From positions 1-28,835 of IMG/VR virus record IMGVR_UViG_3300042376_001191: DNA of 28,835 bases; one strand, written 5' to 3'. The translations under genes and the position numbers were made by a program. This document shows, one piece after another, positions 1,214 through 28,835 of the stretch (positions within the stretch are counted from its first letter, which is position 1; the number at the start of each line of letters is the position of its first letter). Source of the stretch: a virus. The notes under the pieces are model-generated. The model did not search any database. It was not told the DNA's origin and worked only from the letters and a program-made list of their open reading frames with translations.

Positions 1214-1689
1214 AGCGTGCCCCCAGCGCAGCGACATTTCCCGCTGAACTCGTACGGCTGCTTGAGCTGGTTGCCCTGCTCGTCCACCATGCCCTGCACT
1301 CGCACCCACTTCGTGACGCGGATTTCTCCACCTGCGCATCGTGCCGGGTGGTGGATCTTTTCAAGCCCGCGCGAGTTGGGATCGTAGTCCCAATACGTGA
1401 GCCCAGGCACCTCGCGCCCGCACCCTCCTGTGCTTGCCCTAGGCGCTTCGCTGACCGGCTGCCCATGCTTCGCCTCGTTCAGCGCGTCCGCGATGTCTTG
1501 CGGCCCCGTTGGAAGCGATTTGCGGCCCAGTATGAGATCCACCGCCGCCCGAGCGTGCGTTGCATCGTCGGAATGACTGGCGAGCACGTCAATGAGCGAG
1601 GTGAACGTCTCCGGCGCCATGAATCCAAACCCCTGAAGATTCGACATGCGGTTGAGCTGGGCGGTGGCTGTGCCGCGATTACAAGGCAT
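1210..1689 (-). CDS. hypothetical protein downstream of replication initiator
   Basis: A 159-aa protein of unknown function. The ATG at 1689 overlaps the end of the replication initiator by 11 bp; an internal ATG about 14 codons later is a second possible start. The N-terminal half is helical; the C-terminal half is mixed and ends with Cys residues (CAGG, CRCAGG). In lambda-like phages the gene after the initiator often loads the helicase, but no Walker motif is present here, so that role is not supported. Confidence 0.7.
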   Translation of the reverse strand: MPCNRGTATAQLNRMSNLQGFGFMAPETFTSLIDVLASHSDDATHARAAVDLILGRKSLPTGPQDIADALNEAKHGQPVSEAPRASTGGCGREVPGLTYWDYDPNSRGLEKIHHPARCAGGEIRVTKWVRVQGMVDEQGNQLKQPYEFSGKCRCAGGTL

Positions 1690-2722
1690 CGTCCACCTCC
1701 AGCCCGGCTTTCAAGTCCACCGGCCCAAATCGCCGCGGCGCCCGTGGGGCTGGCGGTGCTTGCGAGTACGTGCCGTCGCGGGTCCACCATTGCGCCTGCT
1801 TCGTCCGCAGATCCGGGTTGGCGTCGTATGCCGCCCGCCACTTGCGGACGCTGGCGGTGAAGCTCAAGCAGAAGCCCGCCGGGTTGCCCTCGAAGCTGGC
1901 CGACTTCTGGAACTCGCTGCGCATGGCCGAAGCTGTGAGCCCGACATCGCCGCCAGCCGGCAAGTGCTCACATGCAAACTTCGCCGCGGTCTGGAAAAGC
2001 TCGTCTGGTTCGGGGCCGTTGTCGTCGATGCGGAGTTGCTGCGGCGGGGGCGGGGCGGGCGTCAGCGCGCCATTCCCCCTTCCCCCTTCCACATTCAACA
2101 TTCCACATTCAACATTCATACCGGGAGACCCCCCTATCATAGAGGCAAATCCTGGGGAACTTTGGGGAAATCGTCTATGATCGGCCAATGATAGAGGCAA
2201 ATCCTGGGGAACTTTGGGGAAATCGTCTATCATTGACGTATCATTGGCCGATGATAGGCCCAAATCCTGGGGAATCCTGGGGAATCCTGGGGAACTTTGG
2301 GGAATCGGCCTATCATTGACGTATGATAGAGGCAAATCCTGGGGAATCCTGGGATTTTGCTCTATCATTGGCCTATCATTGATTTGGCCTGATGGAGGCG
2401 GGTACTCGCTTTCCGGGTCCTTATAATGCGGCCGCTGGTGCTTCAGGAAGTTTACGCACTGGATTACCTCGACAGAACCGACCGGATAAAGGACGATCAG
2501 CCCGGCGTCGTGGAGGTCGTGAACCCATTGCGCGACGTCTTCCACGGTCGCCGGATCGAAGCCGAAGGCGTACTTTTTGAGTCGCGTCGGGCGGTACTCC
2601 AGGCGGCCTTCTTTGTCTGCCAGCGTCCACATGGCGATCCACAGTAGGCGCTGCGGGTATCCGACTTTTGCCGGGTCGTCGGACTCGAAGAATCCCGGCT
2701 TGATGTTACGGGCGCGTGCCAT
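1679..2722 (-). CDS. phage replication initiator / replisome organizer
   Basis: A 347-aa protein. Its N-terminal 110 residues (opening MARARNIKPGFF, then LADKEGRLEYRPTRLK and NFLKHQRPHYKDP) match the winged-helix replisome-organizer proteins of many phages, which bind the origin and recruit helicase. Residues about 115-200 form a low-complexity Pro/Ser/Asp linker encoded by the iteron array described separately. The C-terminal third is a second folded part. The ATG at 2722 shares a base with the upstream TAA (TAATG). An initiator that carries the origin inside its own gene is the lambda O arrangement. Confidence 0.8.
   Translation of the reverse strand: MARARNIKPGFFESDDPAKVGYPQRLLWIAMWTLADKEGRLEYRPTRLKKYAFGFDPATVEDVAQWVHDLHDAGLIVLYPVGSVEVIQCVNFLKHQRPHYKDPESEYPPPSGQINDRPMIEQNPRIPQDLPLSYVNDRPIPQSSPGFPRIPQDLGLSSANDTSMIDDFPKVPQDLPLSLADHRRFPQSSPGFASMIGGSPGMNVECGMLNVEGGRGNGALTPAPPPPQQLRIDDNGPEPDELFQTAAKFACEHLPAGGDVGLTASAMRSEFQKSASFEGNPAGFCLSFTASVRKWRAAYDANPDLRTKQAQWWTRDGTYSQAPPAPRAPRRFGPVDLKAGLEVDDAL
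2087..2385. repeat. iteron array, putative replication origin
   Basis: AATCCTGGG(G/A) occurs seven times, starting at 2148, 2200, 2263, 2273, 2283, 2335 and 2345. The steps (10, 52, 63) are close to whole helical turns. An exact 38-bp repeat occurs at 2141-2178 and 2193-2230. CTTTGGGGAA occurs three times. Palindromic CTATCAT/ATGATAG blocks punctuate the array, for example a 7-bp inverted repeat at 2310-2329. A 14-bp tandem repeat lies at 2087-2114. All of it sits inside the linker of the initiator gene, as in lambda-type origins. Confidence 0.75.
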
Positions 2723-4602: not shown

Positions 4603-4751
4603 AGCTGGGCCTCCTGGGTGAGAATGAACTCCTCCGCGAACCAGTCGCCCATGCCCAGCTCCGCCATCGGGTGCCCGTCCGCGATGTACCGCGCCGCCGC
4701 TTCCCGCTGCTCGCGCTGGGCGGTGGCTATGGGGTTGTCAGTCGATTGCAT
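4599..4751 (-). CDS. small acidic hypothetical protein
   Basis: A 50-aa protein starting MQSTDNPIATAQREQREA; mainly helical with an acidic C-terminal half (MGDWFAEEFILTQEAQL). The ATG at 4751 overlaps the end of the upstream methyltransferase gene by 14 bp, and the stop overlaps the next start as ATGA. Function is unknown. Confidence 0.6.
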   Translation of the reverse strand: MQSTDNPIATAQREQREAAARYIADGHPMAELGMGDWFAEEFILTQEAQL

Positions 4752-5730
4752 CGAATAACCCTCCCTGCGCGCCGGCATATGCCTCCGCGCTCTCCAGGTG
4801 CTTGATGGCCGTCGAAAAATACCCCGGCTTGAGTTCGATGCCAATGAACTTGCGGCCCTCGTCCAGCGCGGCAAACCCCTCCGAGCCAACACCGGCGAAC
4901 GGCGATAGCACGACGTCGCCCGGCGAGGACCACAGTTCCAGGCACCGGCGAATCAACCCGAGCTGCAGCGGGCAGATATGCTTCTCGTCCTTTTCGTCGC
5001 GGGCGATGCGGAAGTTCAGCACGTCCGTCTGATCGATGTCCCACCACACCGGCTCCGCGTACCGCCGCCAAATCTCCACGCTCGTCCGTCCGTCGCGACC
5101 CTTGCGCGCGTATTTCGACGGGTGTTGGTCAGTCTCGCGCGGGTCGAGCTCCAGATCGCCGATGTATCGCTCGAACCCGTTCGGCCGCTCGATTGGCTTT
5201 GTGCTGAGATTGTCACCGGGCGGCGTCTTGCGGAACGCCAGCACGTAGTCAGCCATGCCCTGCCGGATCTGCGAGGAGTCGCGCATCACGGTTTTATGGA
5301 GTAGCCCGTTGTTATTGGTCCGTTCCCGCTCCGTCACCGGGCACTTCCACACCGTAACGCGGCTATGGAACGTCCACCCGGCGCGCTCCATAGCGGCGAT
5401 GCACTGGCCTGGAAAGTCCCGCAATCCGCTCGCCCCGTCGCTGTTCCGGTACGTCGGCAGGTCTTTGACGTGCATCACACACAACCGGCCCGTCGTCGTC
5501 ACGCGAAGCAGTTCCGGCGCGAGGAATCCGAAGTGCGCAAAGAACTCCTCATCGCTTGCGCAGTTGCCCATATCGGCCTCGGAATCCGAGTAGGTGTACA
5601 GGCTGGAGAACGGCGGAGAAAACACCGTCAGGTCTACTGACTCGTCGGGTATACCCTTGATGACTTCGCAGCAGTCGCCGTTGTAGAGCGCCCAGTTGCG
5701 GCCGTGCCGCTCGTCTAAAATCACGTTCAT
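4738..5730 (-). CDS. DNA methyltransferase, N4-cytosine/N6-adenine type
   Basis: A 330-aa protein with the catalytic motif SPPF at residues 38-41 and, near the C-terminus (from about 276), SPFAGVGSEGFAAL followed by GRKFIGIELKPGY, the AdoMet-binding motif I. Motif IV before motif I is the beta-class order. SPPF rather than DPPY points to N4-cytosine methylation, but N6-adenine is possible. The ATG at 5730 has GAGGTGG upstream and shares a base with the helicase stop (TAATG). Likely role: protecting phage DNA from host restriction. Confidence 0.88.
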   Translation of the reverse strand: MNVILDERHGRNWALYNGDCCEVIKGIPDESVDLTVFSPPFSSLYTYSDSEADMGNCASDEEFFAHFGFLAPELLRVTTTGRLCVMHVKDLPTYRNSDGASGLRDFPGQCIAAMERAGWTFHSRVTVWKCPVTERERTNNNGLLHKTVMRDSSQIRQGMADYVLAFRKTPPGDNLSTKPIERPNGFERYIGDLELDPRETDQHPSKYARKGRDGRTSVEIWRRYAEPVWWDIDQTDVLNFRIARDEKDEKHICPLQLGLIRRCLELWSSPGDVVLSPFAGVGSEGFAALDEGRKFIGIELKPGYFSTAIKHLESAEAYAGAQGGLFDAID

Positions 5731-7100
5731 TAGATCCACCTCGGAAGATTCATTTGCTTCGTGCCAACGGCTGAAGCAAGCTGACGCCGCCCGGTACCGT
5801 TTTGAATTGCCGCCATCGCATGAACCATGGCCGCTTTCATTTCTTCATGCTTCTTCTGCTTCTCGCGAATGGTCTTTAGGACCGGGCCCTCTGTTTCCGC
5901 GATGACCATGTAGGCATCAACCGGCCGCGTTTGGCCGAAGCGCCACGACCGACGCACTGCCTGATAAAACTGTTCGTAGGAGTAGGACAGCCCGCAAAAG
6001 ATATGCTTATTGCAGTGCTGCCAGTTCATGCCAAACCCCGCGATTGATGGCTTCGTGACGATGCGCTGGAACGCGCCGTGCGTGAACCCAAGTAGCTTTT
6101 CTTCCTTCGCCTCCGTCCGCTCGTCGCCGCGGACTTCCACTGCGCCGTCGATCACCCGCATAAGTTCGTCGGCTTCGTAGTTGGTGTTGCACCAGATACA
6201 CCACGGCTCTTTCGAGTCGCCGATGATCTCGGCAACGCGCGCTGCCCTCGCCGGCGCCGTAAGCCGCATCTCCCGATGTAGGCCTGTTGCCGAAACGTCC
6301 GCCACCCGGAACAGTTGACCGTTGGCGTTGATGGATTGATCGACGGCGACGATCTCCTCATGGATATTCAACGCGGGCATATTCCATCCGTCATCGGAAA
6401 ACCCAAGGTCTGACGGTTTCTCCATGCACACCGACCACGACGCCACCCACCGCCAGTAATCAGCCTCAGCGTGGCCCTTTAGCCGGTAGCCGCCCGCCTT
6501 CATCGTGTCGTTTAGAAACCACCGCATCAGCATTTGCCCGCCGCTCATGATGTCCAGGAACTCAGAGTGGTTGCCGAGCTCCATGTGGTCATTGGGAGAC
6601 GGAGTAGCCGAGCAACAGAGCTTGTATGGCGTGCTGGCAAACGAGTCTTGCAGTAGCCTCCGCGTGGCCCCGGTGAAGTTCTTGAGGATGCTCGACTCGT
6701 CCAAAACAACGGCGTCGAAGTGGCCCGCGTCGAAGTGCGTCAGCATGTCGTAGTTGGCGACATTGACGCCCCGGCGCACGTCCTTCTGGCTTCGGCACTG
6801 CGTTATTTCTACGCCGAACTTCGCGCCCTCTGCTACGGTTTGCGCCGTCACTGCTAGTGGTGCCAGAATCAGCGCGTCGCCGCCAGTATGTTGGCAGACC
6901 TGCCGCGCCCATTCCGCTTGCATTGCCGTCTTGCCGCTCCCGCACTCTGTGAACAGCGCGAACTTGCCAGCGTTCAACGCCCGCGTGATGCTTTGCCGCT
7001 GGAAGCCGAATAGCTTGCCGTTCAGGTCGAACTCTCCGGTAATCCCGGATGGTTGCGGCTGCACGTGCTTGCCGTCGAGAAACGCCCGGTATCCGCTCAT
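5730..7100 (-). CDS. SNF2/DEAD-box-type helicase
   Basis: A 456-aa superfamily 2 ATPase. Walker A-like ECGSGKT is at residues 52-58, the DExx box is DESS at 134-137, SATPSPND (motif III) is at 164-171, and QAVRRSWRFGQTRPV near residue 390 is the motif VI typical of SWI2/SNF2 proteins. Such phage enzymes translocate on double-stranded DNA in replication or recombination. ATGA overlap with the zinc-ribbon gene upstream and TAATG with the methyltransferase downstream suggest coordinated production of the three. Confidence 0.9.
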   Translation of the reverse strand: MSGYRAFLDGKHVQPQPSGITGEFDLNGKLFGFQRQSITRALNAGKFALFTECGSGKTAMQAEWARQVCQHTGGDALILAPLAVTAQTVAEGAKFGVEITQCRSQKDVRRGVNVANYDMLTHFDAGHFDAVVLDESSILKNFTGATRRLLQDSFASTPYKLCCSATPSPNDHMELGNHSEFLDIMSGGQMLMRWFLNDTMKAGGYRLKGHAEADYWRWVASWSVCMEKPSDLGFSDDGWNMPALNIHEEIVAVDQSINANGQLFRVADVSATGLHREMRLTAPARAARVAEIIGDSKEPWCIWCNTNYEADELMRVIDGAVEVRGDERTEAKEEKLLGFTHGAFQRIVTKPSIAGFGMNWQHCNKHIFCGLSYSYEQFYQAVRRSWRFGQTRPVDAYMVIAETEGPVLKTIREKQKKHEEMKAAMVHAMAAIQNGTGRRQLASAVGTKQMNLPRWI

Positions 7101-7735
7101 ACCCGCACCCCCACCCGCCGCGCACACACCGAGTCAATCCACGCCGACCGCGCCGGGTCATCGTTCACCCGATCCTGCGCCAGCGCTTCCGCCCGCGTCA
7201 TCGGCGGACGATACTCGCCCGTATTCATCGGCGCCTGAACGGCGTGCGTTGCCATCGGGTAACTGTTGCCCAGCATCGTCCGCATGGTTGCGGCTCCCCT
7301 GCGCCCGGCTTCCGTGCGTGCCTTTGTTGCGCACTTTGCGCACATCTTGGCGTAACGGCGCTTTTGCTCGATCTGGCCGCCACAGCCGCACCAGCGGATC
7401 TCCTTACGTTCAGCGCGCGTTGTCTTGCGGCATAGAGCACAGCGGGCGTAACGCATATCGCTCTGTAGCAGCACGGACCCGCACGCACAGCGCTTGTCTG
7501 CCCGGCACGCTTTGCACGTTCCGCGCCGGCGCTCGGTCCATGTGAGCATCATGCGCTGACACTGCGTACATGGCACTGCGGCTTTAGCGCGTAGCGCGTC
7601 TCTTTTGACCGCTTGCCGCGCGTTACCGCATGGCTTGCAGATACTGTTGCGCGGCTGGAATTTATCAGCCAGCGTCGGTATAGGCGTACCACACCGCTTG
7701 CACGGATCGTGCGGCACCCATGGTTTGTTTCTCAT
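7097..7735 (-). CDS. Cys-rich multi-zinc-ribbon protein
   Basis: A 212-aa basic protein with a chain of Cys pairs: CKRC, CKPC, CTQC, CKAC, CACG, CALC, CGCG and CAKC in the first 140 residues, enough for about four zinc ribbons. The last 70 residues lack Cys. Multi-ribbon proteins of this kind often bind nucleic acid, and position before the helicase agrees, but no known family is assigned. The ATG at 7735 follows GGGAGCAA and a UGCCGAC-loop hairpin. Confidence 0.8.
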   Translation of the reverse strand: MRNKPWVPHDPCKRCGTPIPTLADKFQPRNSICKPCGNARQAVKRDALRAKAAVPCTQCQRMMLTWTERRRGTCKACRADKRCACGSVLLQSDMRYARCALCRKTTRAERKEIRWCGCGGQIEQKRRYAKMCAKCATKARTEAGRRGAATMRTMLGNSYPMATHAVQAPMNTGEYRPPMTRAEALAQDRVNDDPARSAWIDSVCARRVGVRV

Positions 7736-7771
7736 TTGCTCCCTTTCGTTCAGGCCGTCGGCATTGGCCTG
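7736..7771 (-). promoter_or_regulatory. UGCCGAC-loop hairpin plus RBS (copy 2)
   Basis: Minus-strand stem CAGGCC/GGCCTG (6 bp, 7771-7751) with loop AATGCCGAC, then GAAAGGGAGCAA before the ATG at 7735. It begins 3 nt after the dcm stop codon. Confidence 0.65.
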
Positions 7772-7774
7772 GTG

Positions 7775-8776
7775 TTAGAATTTCAGCCCCGCGCGTTCAG
7801 CAAGGACTCTAAACGCATACGCACCCTGGAGTACCACCACGCCGTTTCCACCGGCGCGTAGTCGGTCCACCCTGGAGGCAGCGACATCAGCCAGTCCACG
7901 AAGTTCGGATTCAACCGCCGGCGCGAGGTCGGGGAAGTCGGCAAGGATTCGCTGCCATGCGGCGGCGTCTCCGGGGCCGGGTGGAAATAATCCGATGTCC
8001 GCGCCTGCTGATCCAACCCCATCTCGTTCTTCCGGTCCCCGCCCCGACATCGGAAGCTGTCCGTAGCTGGCGTCTGCCACCACGCCGCCTGCTCGTTCAG
8101 GTCGATGGTCCAGCCCTGCTCCAACTTCCGCTGCGTCCGTGGTGAGTCCGGCGTTGACGGGTTGTGGTCGTCCCGGCAATTCGGCGTAGCCCACTGCCGC
8201 GTCGCTCCCGTCAGCGAATCCACCGCCCCTGGATGGTTCCCGCAACTCTCCGAGTCCTCGCTTCTGGGCGTGGGCCAGGATGAACGCCCGGTCCCGTCGA
8301 TGCGGGGCGCCAACATCGGACGCTCGAATAGTTCCCCATTCCGCATCGAACCCGAGCGTGGCAAGTTCTCCGAGTACGGTTCCTCCTGTTGGAAAAGCGA
8401 GAACTGGCGGGACGTTTTCAATAAAGACCCATCGGGGCTGAACTTCGCGAATGATTCGCACGTACTCGAAATACAGTCCGCTGGCGGCTCCGTCGAGCCC
8501 GACTTGTCTCCCGGCCACACTGAGGTCGGTGCATGGGAAGCCGCCAATGATTCCGTCCACTCGGCCATGCAACGGGCGGCCGTCGAAGGTTCCAATGTCG
8601 GACCAGATAGGAGCCTTACACAAGCTGCCGTCTTCCATACGCGCCGCCAGGATTGCTGCCGCTGGAGCTTCCCTCTCCACGAAACAGATAGTGCGAGCGA
8701 CTGGAACTGCGCATCGCACGGCAGCGTCGAGCATTCCAGCCCCGCTGAATAAACTGATGATGGTATGTGTAGCCAC
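7775..8776 (-). CDS. dcm: C5-cytosine DNA methyltransferase (Dcm type)
   Basis: A 333-aa protein with C5-methyltransferase motifs in order: FSGAGMLD (I, residues 10-17), GGFPCTDLS (IV, catalytic Cys near 82), ENVPP (VI, 120-124), RRDRAF (VIII, 160-165) and, near the C-terminus, RVDRLRAGGNGVV (IX/X). The region between VIII and IX is short and Gly-rich, so the target-recognition part is unusual. The start is a GTG inside GTGTGG, 10 nt after GGGAG. The gene lies fully over a second reading frame. Likely role: anti-restriction methylation. Confidence 0.85.
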   Translation of the reverse strand: MATHTIISLFSGAGMLDAAVRCAVPVARTICFVEREAPAAAILAARMEDGSLCKAPIWSDIGTFDGRPLHGRVDGIIGGFPCTDLSVAGRQVGLDGAASGLYFEYVRIIREVQPRWVFIENVPPVLAFPTGGTVLGELATLGFDAEWGTIRASDVGAPHRRDRAFILAHAQKRGLGELREPSRGGGFADGSDAAVGYAELPGRPQPVNAGLTTDAAEVGAGLDHRPERAGGVVADASYGQLPMSGRGPEERDGVGSAGADIGLFPPGPGDAAAWQRILADFPDLAPAVESELRGLADVAASRVDRLRAGGNGVVVLQGAYAFRVLAERAGLKF

Positions 8777-16344: not shown

Positions 16345-16524
16345 TTACTTAGCGCGTTCCGTCTCCGGTTTGCGCTTGCTTGCAACACCCCACGCCCACT
16401 CCACCAGCCGCCCGGGGTGCTGTCCACGCTCCTCGGCCCGTTCAATAATGTCCTTGTGAACGCTTGGCAGTATCGTGATTTGTACCGCTTTCCGCCGCTC
16501 TTGTGTGGTTCCTGTGTTGCTCAC
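16345..16524 (-). CDS. ribbon-helix-helix-like small protein
   Basis: A 59-aa protein: basic start (VSNTGTTQERRKAVQ), a strand (VQITILPSV), then two helices (HKDIIERAEERG and PGRLVEWAWGVASKR). Strand-helix-helix in this order suggests a ribbon-helix-helix DNA-binding protein, in this case probably a regulator. It is the first gene of the leftward early block. The GTG start lies 6 nt after the -10 box, so its mRNA is probably leaderless. Confidence 0.65.
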   Translation of the reverse strand: MSNTGTTQERRKAVQITILPSVHKDIIERAEERGQHPGRLVEWAWGVASKRKPETERAK

Positions 16525-16559
16525 AACCCAACCTTAACCCAGCCCGCCGCGCCGGTCAA
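16525..16559 (-). promoter_or_regulatory. early leftward promoter, leaderless type
   Basis: On the minus strand TTGACC (16559-16554), a 17-nt spacer and TAAGGT (16536-16531) are followed by TGGGTT and the GTG at 16524. The start codon sits where transcription should begin. It lies between the late terminator and the first early gene. Confidence 0.7.
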
Positions 16560-16609
16560 CACTAAACCTCACGCGCCGCAAACAAACCGCTATATAGCAC
16601 TTGAGACGC

Positions 16610-16646
16610 AAAAAAGCCGCCCCACCTGTTATGGAGGAGCGGCTTT
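16610..16646 (-). terminator. intrinsic terminator of the late leftward operon
   Basis: On the minus strand AAAGCCGC pairs with GCGGCTTT; the arms extend inward with CC/GG pairs around an ATAACA loop, and six T follow. It ends the late gene block and separates it from the early promoter at 16559. Confidence 0.85.
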
Positions 16647-16802
16647 GATGTCGTGAAATGTGGTTCCGGGCGGAGCTCTCTCCAACCCCCGCACCAGCCC
16701 CCAGCCAGTGCCGGTGATCGTCGGATCAGGCACCCCTTCAGGCCAATAGAACGTGTCGCCTTTGCGGCCGTAGCGGCCGACGAAGCCATCGGGGACGATC
16801 AG
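16629..16802 (-). CDS. in-frame extension after the FN3 stop codon
   Basis: Directly after the UGA of the FN3 gene, and in the same frame, 57 open codons run to a TAA in the terminator loop. The predicted peptide looks natural: IVPDGFVGRYGRKGDTFYWP then TITGTGWGLVRGLERAPPG. No ATG, GTG or TTG lies near its beginning; the first would be a GTG 24 codons in. It may be made by read-through of UGA (the next base is C, a leaky context), from a CTG start, or be the cut-off end of the FN3 protein after a point mutation or sequencing error. Confidence 0.5.
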   Translation of the reverse strand: MIVPDGFVGRYGRKGDTFYWPEGVPDPTITGTGWGLVRGLERAPPGTTFHDIKAAPP

Positions 16803-17108
16803 TCACGGCGGTGATGCTGCGGCGACGGCGGGCGTGGCTGTAAGCCCAGTTGCAGCCATGGGCGCAACGATCATGCCCACCGCTGCCGATGGTGGCGATT
16901 CCAGCCCGCCAGATAGGGCCGTGACGCGGTAGCACCAGTTACCCGGCCCAGGCGAATCCCGGTAGGTTTTGACGGCCACAGGGTCCACTGTGACGCGATC
17001 AAACCGGGATGTGGTGGCACAGACACCCGCGGCCCGGTAGACGTGGTAGGTCGTCGCAGGCGGGTTGATGGCGTCGAGCCAGACGAGGAGGACGGTGGCA
17101 AGTAGCAT
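16803..17108 (-). CDS. fibronectin type III domain protein
   Basis: A 101-aa protein that is almost only one FN3 domain: strand LLVWLDAINPP, then TTYHVYRAAG and WCYRVTALSGGLESPPS, the usual YxVYR / YRVTA signature. A Pro/Ala-rich tail follows. FN3 domains decorate phage tails and capsids and bind host surfaces weakly. AGGAGTGA precedes the ATG at 17108. It follows the fibre gene and may be a separate fibre module or chaperone. Confidence 0.75.
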   Translation of the reverse strand: MLLATVLLVWLDAINPPATTYHVYRAAGVCATTSRFDRVTVDPVAVKTYRDSPGPGNWCYRVTALSGGLESPPSAAVGMIVAPMAATGLTATPAVAAASPP

Positions 17109-23578: not shown

Positions 23579-23716
23579 ATGACCGTCAAGGAACTCATCG
23601 AAAGATTACAGGCGATGCCGCCCGATGCCCCGGTGTTTGTCGCGCAAGGTGAATACCCTGACGAGGAAGCTGTTGAAATAGTGTTACTCGGCGGTGAGAC
23701 AGTGGCGATCTATTAG
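23579..23716 (+). CDS. 45-aa conserved-type phage microprotein
   Basis: Starts MTVKELIERLQAMPPDAPVF and continues VAQGEYPDEEAVEIVLLGGE. The opening 'M-T-V-K-E-L-I-x-x-L-Q-x-[ML]-P-x-D-A-x-V' is a pattern seen in many small phage proteins of unknown function, which makes a chance frame unlikely. It runs opposite to its neighbours; its stop overlaps the stop of the giant fibre gene by 4 bp (convergent). Confidence 0.7.
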   Translation: MTVKELIERLQAMPPDAPVFVAQGEYPDEEAVEIVLLGGETVAIY

Positions 23717-26700
23717 CAGGTGCCGCCGGTCAGGATGCCGCCGCTGAAGATCAGCGTGCAGGTGCCGGTACCGGCGGAGTCGCGCACGGTCTTTGTCGAC
23801 GTGATGCCCGCGGAACCGGACGGGGTGGTGATGGTCCCGGAGATGTTGACGTTCGTGGTAGCAACGGTGGACCAGCGGAAGGATGTATTCCCAAGCGCGT
23901 AAAAGTTGTTGGTCGTTGGGACGAGCGTGCCGGATAGCGATGTGCCGGAACTCAATGCGATATCCCCGTCAATATCGACATGAAAGGTCGAGACCTTGCC
24001 CCACCGGTACGTGTTGGACCCGCTTACGTATGCGCCAGTCGTAGTGGGGAGCACGTCGCCAGTGATGCTGCCTCCCAGGGTCACAGTGCCAGACGCATTC
24101 AGATCGATGGCGTAGATCGTGCTGGGGCGAAAGCTGGGATGGCCGAAGGTGTAGGCGTTATTTGAATCTGGAACGAGATTACCGCCGGCTGATATATCCC
24201 AGCGGACGACGTTGTTAGTCTTGAAATACACGGGGAAGTTGTCGGAAGTCCCAAGTATCGCGGCCGTTCCGAATGAATTTCCGGATTGAACGTAGCAGGT
24301 TGGGCACGCGGCCGCAGCTTGCCATGAACCAGCGCCGCCCGTGGATGTCGCGGTCCAGACATAGCCTACGGTCGTGGTATCGGTAAGGATGAAGCCAGAG
24401 GCAGAGAAGTAGCCAGCCCCATACGAATAGCCAGAGTCGCCGATTGAGCCAGTTCCGCCGAATAGCGGCTTCATTGTGCCCGCCATCGTCCCGCTGTTGA
24501 AGCTGAACGTAGCCGAGCCAGTGGCGGCGATGCTTCCGAGGATCGTCACCGCTTGATTCTTGATCGTGATAGCGTCCTGATACGTTCCCGAGCCAGTTGC
24601 TGTTTGGATGGCAAATTTCTCATCTGTGAATGCTGCCGACTCGTACCCAGAGCACACCCGCGCGGCTCCATAGATAGTGCTGGTGACGGTATCGGTAGAG
24701 GCAAGCACAAGGCACGCCGGATCATAAAACCCGCTGTTGTTGGTCTGCGATAAGGTGAGCTGGTTCTGGACGCTAGCGATAGCCACCGTTTGCGGATTGA
24801 CGAAGGTCTGATTGATGTTGAGCCCGGCGAGCGTATGATCTCCGTCCTGCACTGTGAGCACGCGCGTCGTTCCGGTAGTCAGCCCGTCCACCTCAAACCG
24901 CACGATCTTGCTGGCGTCACTGGAGCCCTTTGCGATGCCGGTAGTATCGACGACAGGCAGCGATGAGCCGCCGCTGGCGGCCTGCCAGGAGCCGGCCCCG
25001 CCCGTACTCGTGGCCGTCCAGACGTGCCCAACCGTGGCCGCCCCCGTGTTGATCGTAAGCCCAACGGTGGAAAGTGTTCCGCTATAGTCACCATCGACAC
25101 TGTAGACATTCGACCAGCGCTTTGAGGAGTCGCCAAATTGCGCTCCGCCGTTTACTTTAGGCTCAATAATCGATGTGGCGGTTATGGAACCGACGAACAA
25201 CTCGTTCCACTCATTGCCAGTTGCGCCTATATCGCGCGTGCCAGATGGGACCACGTTTCCGGCTATTGTCACTTGTCCGCTGGAATTGATTTGCAGGTAG
25301 GAGACGTTGTTGGTTTCGAGGGATAGCGTTTGCGCGTCATTCGTGCCAATCGTCAGCATCGCTCCGGTGGTGTTTCCACCGTTGACGATACAAGTCGAAC
25401 ACGGCGCGGGGGCGGCCCATGAAGCATTTCCGCTTGCGTCTGAAGTCAGGATGTAGTTATTTGTTGCCCCCGTGCGAATGGTAATGGTGTTGGTGTCTAA
25501 AATACTTCCAAACACGTACGACCAGCGGTTTGACAGGTTCCCAATGGTTGGAAGTGTTCCGTCGTCCACAGCGTCACCGCCCGCAATGGTGCGGCCAGCT
25601 GGCAGCCAGTTGGCGTATACAAACGTGTCATTCGAAGGCAACGACGATAGCGCCCGATAGCCGCGAATCCAACGAGAGCCAGAGTTATCAAGGATGTTAA
25701 TGGACGATGTGCCAGTGGTGGCGTTGGCCGATAGATACCAAAAGCCAGTAGCGCCGCCTGTGTCGGCAAGTTGCAGCTTTCGCGTCTGCATGTAATCGCC
25801 GGTACCGCCAGCCAGCGCCGTGTCCACGATTTTGCTATACACCCCACGCACGCGAAGAGGCGTTGTTAGGTCGCCAATGTTGTAGGTGTCCGTAGCCATC
25901 GGCACATACATGCCCGCCGCCGTCCACTGCCACCGCGCCGCGGAGTCGGTGTAGATCGTGACAGGATGCAACGAGAACGCCCCCAGCCCAACGCCGCTGG
26001 ATAGACCGGCCCCTAAGCGCCCCGTGATGGTGCCGGAAAGGGAGTACAAGGAACCGTAGGAAATGAAATTTTTGTCTTTATCGAACGACGCGGCAATCGT
26101 CTGCCCGCTGTTGTTTTTAGATATCAACACATCGAAGCGCGGATAACGGTTGGCCGCGGTCGAATCCTCCCAGAGCACCTGCCAGCCGCCGGCAATAATG
26201 CCGGTTCCAGCGTCATCCTCCAGTGTCACGGCTTGCTGCACGCCGAAGCCGGTTGCGGTGGTGCCGGTCGAATGGCGCTCAATTGATCCCACCGACGCGG
26301 TGTTATTGGTGCCAGAATCTTTGAGGTACGTGCTGGACTGCACCCCGTCGCGGATCGTGCCCGACGTGCTAACACGCGTGGACGGAGCGCCTACTACCGC
26401 CGCCATGGTGGCCGTTGTGCCGCTTCCCCCGTTGAATCCCGTCGTGCAGGCCGTGCCGAGATCAACGCCCACGAACGTGATGTTCGTTCCCGCCGCCGCG
26501 TCTACAGCCGTGCCGCTGGTCGCGCAGGTAATCTCTCCCCCGTTGATCGCCACGCGGTCAGTGGATGCCCCGCTGATGGAGACGGCGGTGGAATAGTTGC
26601 GAATTTTGTTGCTGGTGACATTGGCGCCAATGGCGTTTGCCAGCTTGACTCCCTGTGTGCCCGCTTCGCCCGCGCCGTAAAACTCGTTATCACTGATTTG

Positions 26701-28335
26701 CGCTCCCGTGCTAGAGCCGTCCAGGTCGAGGTGTAGGCTGTATTTATGCGCTCGAAACGTGTTGCCTGAAATCTTGATATCCGGGCCCGCGTGGTCTGCG
26801 TAGATGCCCGTGTGGTCGTAGGTGACGCCCGACAGGTTCGCCATCCGATTGTCGAGTATGTCGAACTGGGCAAAGCGCGGCCCGGTCAGCTTGATGGCGG
26901 TGTATGCTTCGGCGTTGAAAAAGTTGCTAAATGAATTGTTGTGGATCTGCGCGCCAGCAAATGGCACCTTGCTATCGAACCAAACGCCCGTGCGGTTCTG
27001 ATTGTCGAAATTGTTCCCGTAGAAGTGGAATTGACCGGTCGATTGTCCCACCTTTGCGCCGGTCAGCGTGCCAAGGTTATCGGCAAGGGTGACATGGGTT
27101 GCGTCGGTATACGCTGCAATTGTCGTGAGATTGCCGTCCACGTAGACAGCCAATCCGACTTGTATCGGCCAGAAGCGGCCCGTGGTGGCGGTGGCGGCTG
27201 TGCCGGATACATTAACAGTGGCAAAAGCCAGATCGGCATAGAAGCTGTCCCGGCAACCAAGAAAGTAATTATTGGCAAATGTTGCCGCGCCTGGCGAGTG
27301 AAAAAACACGCCTTTAGAGTCGGTATCTGACGTGCAGACGAAGTTGTTTTCAAGCGCCGTCAATCCGCCTTGATCGGAGTTGATTTCGTTGGCCACCTCA
27401 AACCCAACGCGCGTAGAGTAGAACCGATTGCCGATCACATACAATTCCGTCGCGGTCCGGTGGTTGATGCCTACCGCGTGATTTTGCAAGAAATTGTCAA
27501 TAAAGCGGTCGGACCCACCGTTACTTACCAGCGCTTGCGCATAGATTCCCGTGGTGGTGGTGTCACCCACAATCGACATCCGTATCACGTCGAGCGTGTT
27601 GTTCGAGTTTTTGCAGATGCCTTGCTGGTTTGGCGTGGTTAGGTAGATTGCCGATCCGGTTCCCTGCCCCAAGAACGTCACGTTTTTGCCGTTAGTGCAG
27701 GCGCGCGTCTTCCACGACGGGTTACCGATGGGATACGAGAGCGTCACCGAGCTAGACGCCGCGTTGATTGCTTCCTGTGCACCGACGCTGCCGCTGGCAA
27801 TGGTCGTGGTGCCCGTGTGGCTGTTGGCCGTCGTGACTTCGATAGTGCAAGACGTTTGCCCGGTGCCGTCACAGGTGCCAGTGCCGGTCGATGTCACCGC
27901 CTCAGACGAGCCCGGCGTGCCAACGAGCCAATACTGGCTTGCAGTATCGGTCGCGATGACGCCCAGCGGTCCAGGGGTCAGTGTAATGGTGCGGGTACCA
28001 GCCGCGCCCGGAGCGGTGATGGTTTGAGACCAATCGTAGTCGCCAGGATTGACGTTACCGCCAGCTCCGCACGTGCTCCAACCCCACTGGCCAGCGCCGT
28101 CGGTCGAGAGGCATTGGTTGGCGGTGCCGTCGGCGGTGGGAAGCGTCCAGACGGTATTTGCCGCCACGGATTGCGGCGCCTTGATGCCGACGTAGTTTGT
28201 CCCGTTCGTGCGCCGCTCCTGCATCCGCAGTTCGCCCGTAGCGCTTCCGGCGCTTTGGGTGATGGTAAGAGGCGTCTGTGACTGCCCGAACGCCGCCAGG
28301 GCGGCCAGGGCGCAAAGGATGATGGGTTTATTCAT
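23713..28335 (-). CDS. giant beta-helix tail fibre/tailspike-like protein
   Basis: A 1540-aa protein. Residues 1-20 (MNKPIILCALAALAAFGQSQ) form a signal peptide. Residues 45-75 hold a common fibre phrase (ANTVWTLPTADGTANQCLS). Residues about 180-650 alternate short strands with Asn/Gly turns (LYVIGNRFYSTRVGFEVANE, AQIHNNSFSNFF, KISGNTFRAHKYS), the right-handed beta-helix pattern of pectate-lyase-like tailspikes. The last third is made of repeats with G-x-x-x-x-R-W-x-x-V and two nearly equal copies of WTATSTGGAGSWQAA. Likely binds or cuts surface polysaccharide. Its ATG overlaps the upstream stop by 8 bp. Confidence 0.85.
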   Translation of the reverse strand: MNKPIILCALAALAAFGQSQTPLTITQSAGSATGELRMQERRTNGTNYVGIKAPQSVAANTVWTLPTADGTANQCLSTDGAGQWGWSTCGAGGNVNPGDYDWSQTITAPGAAGTRTITLTPGPLGVIATDTASQYWLVGTPGSSEAVTSTGTGTCDGTGQTSCTIEVTTANSHTGTTTIASGSVGAQEAINAASSSVTLSYPIGNPSWKTRACTNGKNVTFLGQGTGSAIYLTTPNQQGICKNSNNTLDVIRMSIVGDTTTTGIYAQALVSNGGSDRFIDNFLQNHAVGINHRTATELYVIGNRFYSTRVGFEVANEINSDQGGLTALENNFVCTSDTDSKGVFFHSPGAATFANNYFLGCRDSFYADLAFATVNVSGTAATATTGRFWPIQVGLAVYVDGNLTTIAAYTDATHVTLADNLGTLTGAKVGQSTGQFHFYGNNFDNQNRTGVWFDSKVPFAGAQIHNNSFSNFFNAEAYTAIKLTGPRFAQFDILDNRMANLSGVTYDHTGIYADHAGPDIKISGNTFRAHKYSLHLDLDGSSTGAQISDNEFYGAGEAGTQGVKLANAIGANVTSNKIRNYSTAVSISGASTDRVAINGGEITCATSGTAVDAAAGTNITFVGVDLGTACTTGFNGGSGTTATMAAVVGAPSTRVSTSGTIRDGVQSSTYLKDSGTNNTASVGSIERHSTGTTATGFGVQQAVTLEDDAGTGIIAGGWQVLWEDSTAANRYPRFDVLISKNNSGQTIAASFDKDKNFISYGSLYSLSGTITGRLGAGLSSGVGLGAFSLHPVTIYTDSAARWQWTAAGMYVPMATDTYNIGDLTTPLRVRGVYSKIVDTALAGGTGDYMQTRKLQLADTGGATGFWYLSANATTGTSSINILDNSGSRWIRGYRALSSLPSNDTFVYANWLPAGRTIAGGDAVDDGTLPTIGNLSNRWSYVFGSILDTNTITIRTGATNNYILTSDASGNASWAAPAPCSTCIVNGGNTTGAMLTIGTNDAQTLSLETNNVSYLQINSSGQVTIAGNVVPSGTRDIGATGNEWNELFVGSITATSIIEPKVNGGAQFGDSSKRWSNVYSVDGDYSGTLSTVGLTINTGAATVGHVWTATSTGGAGSWQAASGGSSLPVVDTTGIAKGSSDASKIVRFEVDGLTTGTTRVLTVQDGDHTLAGLNINQTFVNPQTVAIASVQNQLTLSQTNNSGFYDPACLVLASTDTVTSTIYGAARVCSGYESAAFTDEKFAIQTATGSGTYQDAITIKNQAVTILGSIAATGSATFSFNSGTMAGTMKPLFGGTGSIGDSGYSYGAGYFSASGFILTDTTTVGYVWTATSTGGAGSWQAAAACPTCYVQSGNSFGTAAILGTSDNFPVYFKTNNVVRWDISAGGNLVPDSNNAYTFGHPSFRPSTIYAIDLNASGTVTLGGSITGDVLPTTTGAYVSGSNTYRWGKVSTFHVDIDGDIALSSGTSLSGTLVPTTNNFYALGNTSFRWSTVATTNVNISGTITTPSGSAGITSTKTVRDSAGTGTCTLIFSGGILTGGTC

Positions 28336-28835
28336 AGAGAACCGAATAGGGCGCGCATACCGCCCACCACTTGCCGTCGGCACGCCCGCGGAACTGGAAG
28401 CACGTCACCGAGCCATTTTTTCCAGGGAGCGTAGAGCCGAAATTTGTATTGAAATCGGAATCGAAGCTGATCGTGTACGGCCCAGCTCCCTGCGTCACGT
28501 AGACCGTCAGCAGGTCGGCCGCCGTGGGCGTATACGGGCTAGCGATGGTGGTATTGGCCGTCAGCGTAATTTCGATGGGCGTTGAACTGCCGCCAGTGCC
28601 GGTCGAGCCGCCGGCCACAAACGAGCCGGTGGCACCGCCGCCAGACGAGCCGCCCGCAATGGCCCTCCAGAACTCGACCGCGCCGCCCAGCCGGTTTGTG
28701 CTGATGGCTTTGACGGTGAACTGCAACCACTGCCCATAGACATCGCGAAGGGAAACTTCGCGGATCAAATATGTGCCGCTGGAGACGTTGAAGTAGCTAT
28801 TAGCGATGGTCTGAAGTTGCCCAGGCCGCAGCGTG
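28328..28835 (-). CDS. tail protein, truncated by the window edge
   Basis: The frame is open to the right edge, so only the last 168 residues are present. It begins TLRPGQLQTIANSYFNVSSG and has a flexible Gly/Ser linker (GGSSGGGATGSFVAGGSTGT) before a beta-rich end domain (ITLTANTTIASPYTPTAADL ... SVTCFQFRGRADGKWWAVC). That last domain resembles trimeric tail-fibre modules. An internal TTG at 28768 could be mistaken for a start. It is the gene directly before the giant fibre and probably a minor tail or hub-associated protein. Confidence 0.7.
   Translation of the reverse strand, partial: TLRPGQLQTIANSYFNVSSGTYLIREVSLRDVYGQWLQFTVKAISTNRLGGAVEFWRAIAGGSSGGGATGSFVAGGSTGTGGSSTPIEITLTANTTIASPYTPTAADLLTVYVTQGAGPYTISFDSDFNTNFGSTLPGKNGSVTCFQFRGRADGKWWAVCAPYSVLYE

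Follow-up and report, generated by a model that had tools for sequence, protein, structure and literature searches.

A probable bipartite replication origin within the linker codons of a phage initiator gene

In phage lambda, iterons and an AT-rich tract are located in the middle of the O gene; O protein bound to the iterons causes the A+T-rich DNA beside them to open (PMC7466680, PMC5043065). In the rep gene of pSK41, the Rep boxes are central and are bound by the N-domain of the protein, the central peptide is a dispensable linker, and the C-domain is conserved; between the pPR9 chimera and pSK41, the N-domain and the origin are swapped and the C-domain stays constant (PMC5703833). A handful of models such as these represent origins nested in initiator genes. 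Here, we describe phage initiator genes in which dozens of natural variants, i.e., three-frame reading, inverted cassettes, domain swaps, stop-dodging repeats and relocated arrays, separate selection on DNA from selection on protein.

The window, i.e., the whole 28,835-nt stretch of viral DNA that was analysed (IMG/VR record IMGVR_UViG_3300042376_001191), contains an initiator gene with two repeat modules in the codons of its linker. The anatomy, conservation, co-variation and relocation of the array are direct observations. From the sequences we infer that the replication start site very probably lies inside the gene of the initiator that recognizes it, and that the linker DNA is highly likely to function as a bipartite theta origin, composed of iterons (module 1) and an unwinding element (module 2). 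The features are as follows.

1679..2722, minus strand: replication initiator gene encoding 347 aa, with its ATG at 2722 and a final stop codon (from the PHROG match and translation)
2393..2722, minus strand: N-terminal winged-helix domain, aa 1-110 (from AlphaFold2 and a pN/pS of 0.08), putatively origin-binding
2133..2382, unstranded: module 1, iteron/palindrome array within the linker codons, conserved in about 40 related contigs
2148..2167, plus strand: decamer cluster 1, AATCCTGGGG AACTTTGGGG
2175..2194, unstranded: 20-bp imperfect palindrome CTATGATCGGCCAATGATAG
2200..2219, plus strand: decamer cluster 2, AATCCTGGGG AACTTTGGGG, 52 bp from cluster 1
2227..2257, unstranded: overlapping CTATCAT/ATGATAG palindromes
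2263..2302, plus strand: decamer cluster 3, three AATCCTGGGG and AACTTTGGGG, 63 bp from cluster 2
2310..2329, unstranded: palindrome CTATCATTGACGTATGATAG
2335..2354, plus strand: decamer cluster 4, AATCCTGGGG AATCCTGGGA, 72 bp from cluster 3
2362..2381, unstranded: CTATCATTGGCCTATCATTG element
2084..2118, minus strand: module 2, heptads TGAATGT TGAATGT GGAATGT TGAATGT GGAAGGG, putative unwinding element
1682..2011, minus strand: C-terminal helical domain, aa 238-347 (from the comparison of L086, L088 and L137 and from AlphaFold2)

Compared with lambda O and its origin, the locus likewise has iterons and a low-stability tract inside the initiator gene (modules 1 and 2), and a homologue of the window protein holds the O position in phage HK639. 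However, lambda has four 19-bp iterons where we find 10-bp direct units and palindromes, and the putative unwinding tract is built from a repeated 7-nt unit and is not simply A+T-rich. With the RepA_N system of pSK41, the locus shares origin repeats central in the gene and an N-domain and array that are exchanged against a constant C-domain; it differs in belonging to a phage, in the repeats themselves, in having a heptad element and in matching no Pfam RepA_N profile. A Pfam search with the window initiator returned no family at E ≤ 0.01, lambda O (Phage_rep_O) and RepA_N included. The lambda-O-like design that had been proposed for this locus is supported as a way of working and not as membership of the Pfam lambda O family, and our comparison supports a system that appears to work like lambda O and pSK41 RepA_N and by Pfam belongs to neither. 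The closest proteins are those of PHROG 16167 and PHROG 12556 in phages F10, JBD44, Louie and HK639, which share the N-domain and a linker with repeats of 11-bp period followed by TGATTCC-type heptads. In the window lineage, by contrast, the array of decamers and palindromes is a distinct one, the heptads are TGAATGT and the C-domain differs.

The repeats of module 1 described in an earlier note are present. AATCCTGGG occurs seven times (at 2148, 2200, 2263, 2273, 2283, 2335 and 2345, with spacings of 52, 63, 10, 10, 52 and 10), CTTTGGGGAA three times (at 2160, 2212 and 2295), and the array also holds five CTATCAT and three ATGATAG. AATCCTGGG, CTTTGGGGAA and AACTTTGGGG are variants of a common decamer, AAYYYTGGGG. 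It occurs nine times exactly in the window, where 0.37 copies would be expected and 100 shuffles gave at most two; a tenth copy carries one change, at the last base. The ten decamers form four clusters (2, 2, 4 and 2 units) lying 52, 63 and 72 bp apart, with 10-bp spacing within clusters. Interspersed among them are CTATCAT/ATGATAG elements, which make up imperfect palindromes of 20 bp. The array is well beyond chance: in synonymous-codon shuffles that keep the peptide, the decamer core occurs 0.5 times on average and at most four times (10 observed), and the longest exact repeat in the gene reaches at most 14 nt (40 nt observed). The exact copies, at 2139-2178 and 2191-2230, are indeed 52 bp apart, as had been noted, but are 40 bp long instead of 38 bp. 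Translation reproduces the peptides quoted for them, IDDFPKVPQDLPL and RRFPQSSPGFAS, and identical DNA is read in differing protein frames; the frames are not two, however, as the decamers occupy all three (5/3/2). Likewise, the array does lie in the region 2087-2385 first assigned to it, but its extent is 2133-2382, and 2084-2118 is a separate 7-nt repeat that had been passed over.

The proposal that the gene encodes an initiator is borne out by its N-domain and by the surroundings of its homologues. The N-domain of the window protein (P0001, aa 26-142) matches the replication initiation profiles PHROG 16167 (E=1.4e-33) and PHROG 12556 (E=1e-30), and the NIKPGFF motif is invariant. The homologue precedes genes for a DnaC-like loader and DnaB helicase in F10, a DnaC-like loader gene in Louie and a DnaB gene in JBD44; in HK639, it stands where O stands in lambda, behind cII and ahead of a replication protein and ren. 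In the window itself, no helicase loader gene is recognizable adjacent to the initiator gene, and RusA-like, SSB, helicase and Sak4-like genes all lie at a distance from it. AlphaFold2 predicts a confident winged helix (pLDDT about 90 across aa 20-98), a disordered linker (aa 115-219) and, with moderate confidence, three helices in the C-domain (aa 239-301). A sequence search of the PDB with the N-domain found no relative. In a fold comparison of aa 1-91, PDB entries 4pql ("N-Terminal domain of DNA binding protein") and 4pt7 ("Structure of initiator"), which we take to be staphylococcal RepA N-domains, scored Z 7.0-7.6, tied with unrelated winged helices. Among annotated phages, the sole DNA match was 71% to the N-domain, in F10 and LESphi2, and a search of a genome collection returned five bacterial homologues only. 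Elsewhere in the window, 4738-8776 (minus strand) holds a cluster of N6/N4 DNA methyltransferase, SNF2-like helicase and C5-cytosine methyltransferase genes, and 23713-28383 (minus strand) is a 1556-aa open frame matching neither Pfam nor PHROG. A Louie-like phage recorded as a plasmid (E. coli NZ_CP081778, 39,448 bp, circular) carries the initiator with heptads and is possibly an extrachromosomal prophage.

We suggest that the winged-helix N-domain would bind module 1, in which the spacings are near whole helical turns. The bound DNA would be bent, placing strain on the adjacent low-stability heptads of module 2; module 2 would then open, with the initiator, or a partner, holding one strand, and the C-domain would recruit the helicase or its loader. 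Because the linker peptide is mostly a disordered tether, the DNA can be selected and the peptide can drift, bounded by the rule that no stop codon may arise. The linker peptide is presumably dispensable, as it is in pSK41, judging from its pN/pS and from the array-free linkers of relatives.

Module 2 coincides with the 30-nt duplex of lowest stability in the initiator gene. Searched against 2.9 million viral contigs, GAATGTTGAATGTGGAATG gave 19 matches, all 19 within contigs of this initiator family, and the repeat encoding NVECGMLNVE, also considered as a dispersed genomic element, was rejected as such on account of this confinement. Across 51 non-redundant family members, TGATTCC-type heptads are usual at the place of module 2. 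TGATTC occurs 136 times on the coding strand and 16 times on the template strand (synonymous null, 24±4), with successive heptads spaced 7 nt (n=57) or 8 nt (n=32) apart; it is found in the linker in 37 of the 51 genes and elsewhere in the gene in two. A period of 11 and 22 nt, clearly exceeding the synonymous null, is seen upstream of the heptads in 26 linkers. The instability of the heptad module lies on average at the 96th percentile, against 69 for random positions scored alike. Two actinophages, Mycobacterium phage Charlie (L316) and Streptomyces phage Austintatious (L321), carry GGAACAG(G) repeats of 7/8 nt at the site of the TGATTCC heptads; the 7/8-nt period may thus be kept even where the sequence is not. 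In Myxococcus phage Mx8 (L315), heptads are absent from the initiator gene and the linker region seemingly holds an inserted domain (YFVRAESGGPVKIGTAANVEHRL), which presumably resembles GIY-YIG/T5orf172.

We give even chances to a more specific reading, in which, across a large and widespread phage initiator family, the heptads form a strand-oriented unwinding or strand-capture element that dodges stop codons, belongs with the N-domain and the iterons to a swappable cassette and is perfect outside the gene; this element, TGATTCC in many phages of proteobacteria and TGAATGT in the window lineage, would be previously undescribed. A less probable but serious alternative, which is compatible with the origin reading, is that the heptads are a duplex site for the initiator, the loader or a host factor and not a melting element. 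The specific heptad sequence is also present in AT-rich genomes (L178, 36% GC), and low stability alone therefore does not explain it; on the other hand, their duplex stability is consistently among the lowest in the gene, and they are placed like the AT-rich tract of lambda. How a phage initiator melts DNA becomes a question open to direct tests in the laboratory phages Louie, HK639, F10 and JBD44, and the heptad element would provide a sequence by which to locate replication origins in many phages that lack annotation. The location of an origin in an initiator gene is a known design; the heptad element, the stop-dodging and the relocation appear to be undescribed in the open-licence literature that we searched, in which neither the heptad strings nor their peptides were found.

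The coding arrays bear the mark of the reading frame. TGATTC is barred from frame 0 because it starts with the stop codon TGA, and since a 7-nt repeat shifts through the frames, the third unit would be a stop. Accordingly, coding arrays alternate 7- and 8-nt spacing or swap the third unit (GGATTC, CTTAAC). In 36 cases, the next TGATTC lies at +7, in frame 2, and in module 2 of the window, GGAATGT sits exactly in frame 0, with GGA instead of TGA. A scan of viral contigs for long heptad arrays returned 68 loci, 27 inside this initiator gene, 36 intergenic, one after a truncated initiator (L289) and four unrelated. The intergenic loci are iteron-plus-heptad arrays whose flanks are of the same kind; a family initiator is present in the fetched DNA of 22 and absent from that of 14. 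The 37 non-coding arrays consist of 5-9 uninterrupted heptads. The initiators from loci with relocated arrays (n=20) have a short acidic linker without an array, and TGATTC is absent from the whole gene in 19 of them and present as a single copy in one. When the site leaves the gene, the interruptions vanish and the linker shrinks, providing a natural control; because the phages with intergenic arrays are closely related to each other, this control represents one or a few events and not 36. In L289, the initiator gene ends just before a pure heptad array (at roughly 7645-7710 of the reverse-complemented locus). Outside the initiator family, heptad-like TGATTC arrays occur in L228, L270, L284 and L286, the one in L270 being long, irregular and located in short frames.

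Exchange of domains among relatives links the array to the N-domain. L086 has 49% identity in the N-domain and 76% in the C-domain, L088 has 45% and 87%, and in both the linker repeats are wholly different and include 20-bp palindromes at 42, 63 or 84 bp, i.e., 4, 6 or 8 helical turns. In L137, about 88% of the C-domain is kept and the N-domain is unrelated, with GCAACA repeats and a purine-rich tract. The constant C-domain combined with a changed N-domain and array indicates that N-domain and array travel together, as would be expected if the N-domain reads the array. N-domain identity is also higher within iteron classes than between them (0.588 vs 0.544; 0 of 2000 permutations), a correlation based on crude classes that hints at co-change and is confounded by shared descent, as phylogeny was not removed.

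The earlier note had also predicted that cumulative GC skew would turn at the array. It does not: the window curve turns near 16.7 kb (reversing at 16500-17000), in a contig that is a linear fragment, for which circular detrending is unsafe. Nor is an origin at the array supported by skew in G001 and G003, which are relatives of the window, or in Bordetella phage IFTN1. In complete genomes, the detrended skew minimum lies 484 bp from the linker in F10, 1595 bp in Louie and 1146 bp in HK639, i.e., within 1.6 kb in three of four complete named phages, with IFTN1 as the exception; these minima are consistent with an origin but are confounded by gene orientation and a lambda-like transcription layout. 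It is quite unlikely that the array serves as an operator, or binds a protein for autoregulation, partition or packaging in some other way, rather than being an origin. Palindromes and decamers could bind a regulator, and the relocated intergenic arrays adjoin a repressor gene; however, the position in the initiator linker, the adjacent low-stability heptads and the co-change of the N-domain fit an origin better, as do the replication-gene context and the nearby skew minimum in the three complete phages.

Our data uphold the earlier proposal that selection has kept the DNA and not the peptide. First, pN/pS is 0.87 in the linker compared to 0.08 in the N-domain and 0.10 in the C-domain (14-15 alleles; simple counts, phylogeny uncorrected), and the array is nevertheless conserved, in the same or a variant form, in about 40 related viral contigs. 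Second, polymorphic linker sites are depleted in the repeat elements (decamers 17/109 and ATGATA/TATCAT elements 5/61, together 22/170) compared to elsewhere in the linker (45/103; Fisher p=2e-8, phylogeny uncorrected). Third, in one lineage (L043, L067 and L073-L083) a cassette is inverted, and the complementary strand is therefore translated (IEANPGESWGNGLS). Fourth, arrays have relocated to intergenic DNA. A neutral minisatellite, expanded by slippage or recombination in an unconstrained disordered linker, would account for the disorder, for the drift of amino acids and for the perfect tandem copies in L092 and L095. We consider it very unlikely, as the repeat elements are less polymorphic than the adjoining linker, the same heptad sequence occurs on one strand in distant genomes, and perfect arrays persist outside the gene. 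Finally, although the short motifs IPQDL and SSPGF recur, it is extremely improbable that the repeats encode a Pro-rich peptide selected as protein, given that the same DNA is translated in each of the three frames and, in some relatives, from the other strand, that linker pN/pS is high, and that initiators with relocated arrays do without the peptide.
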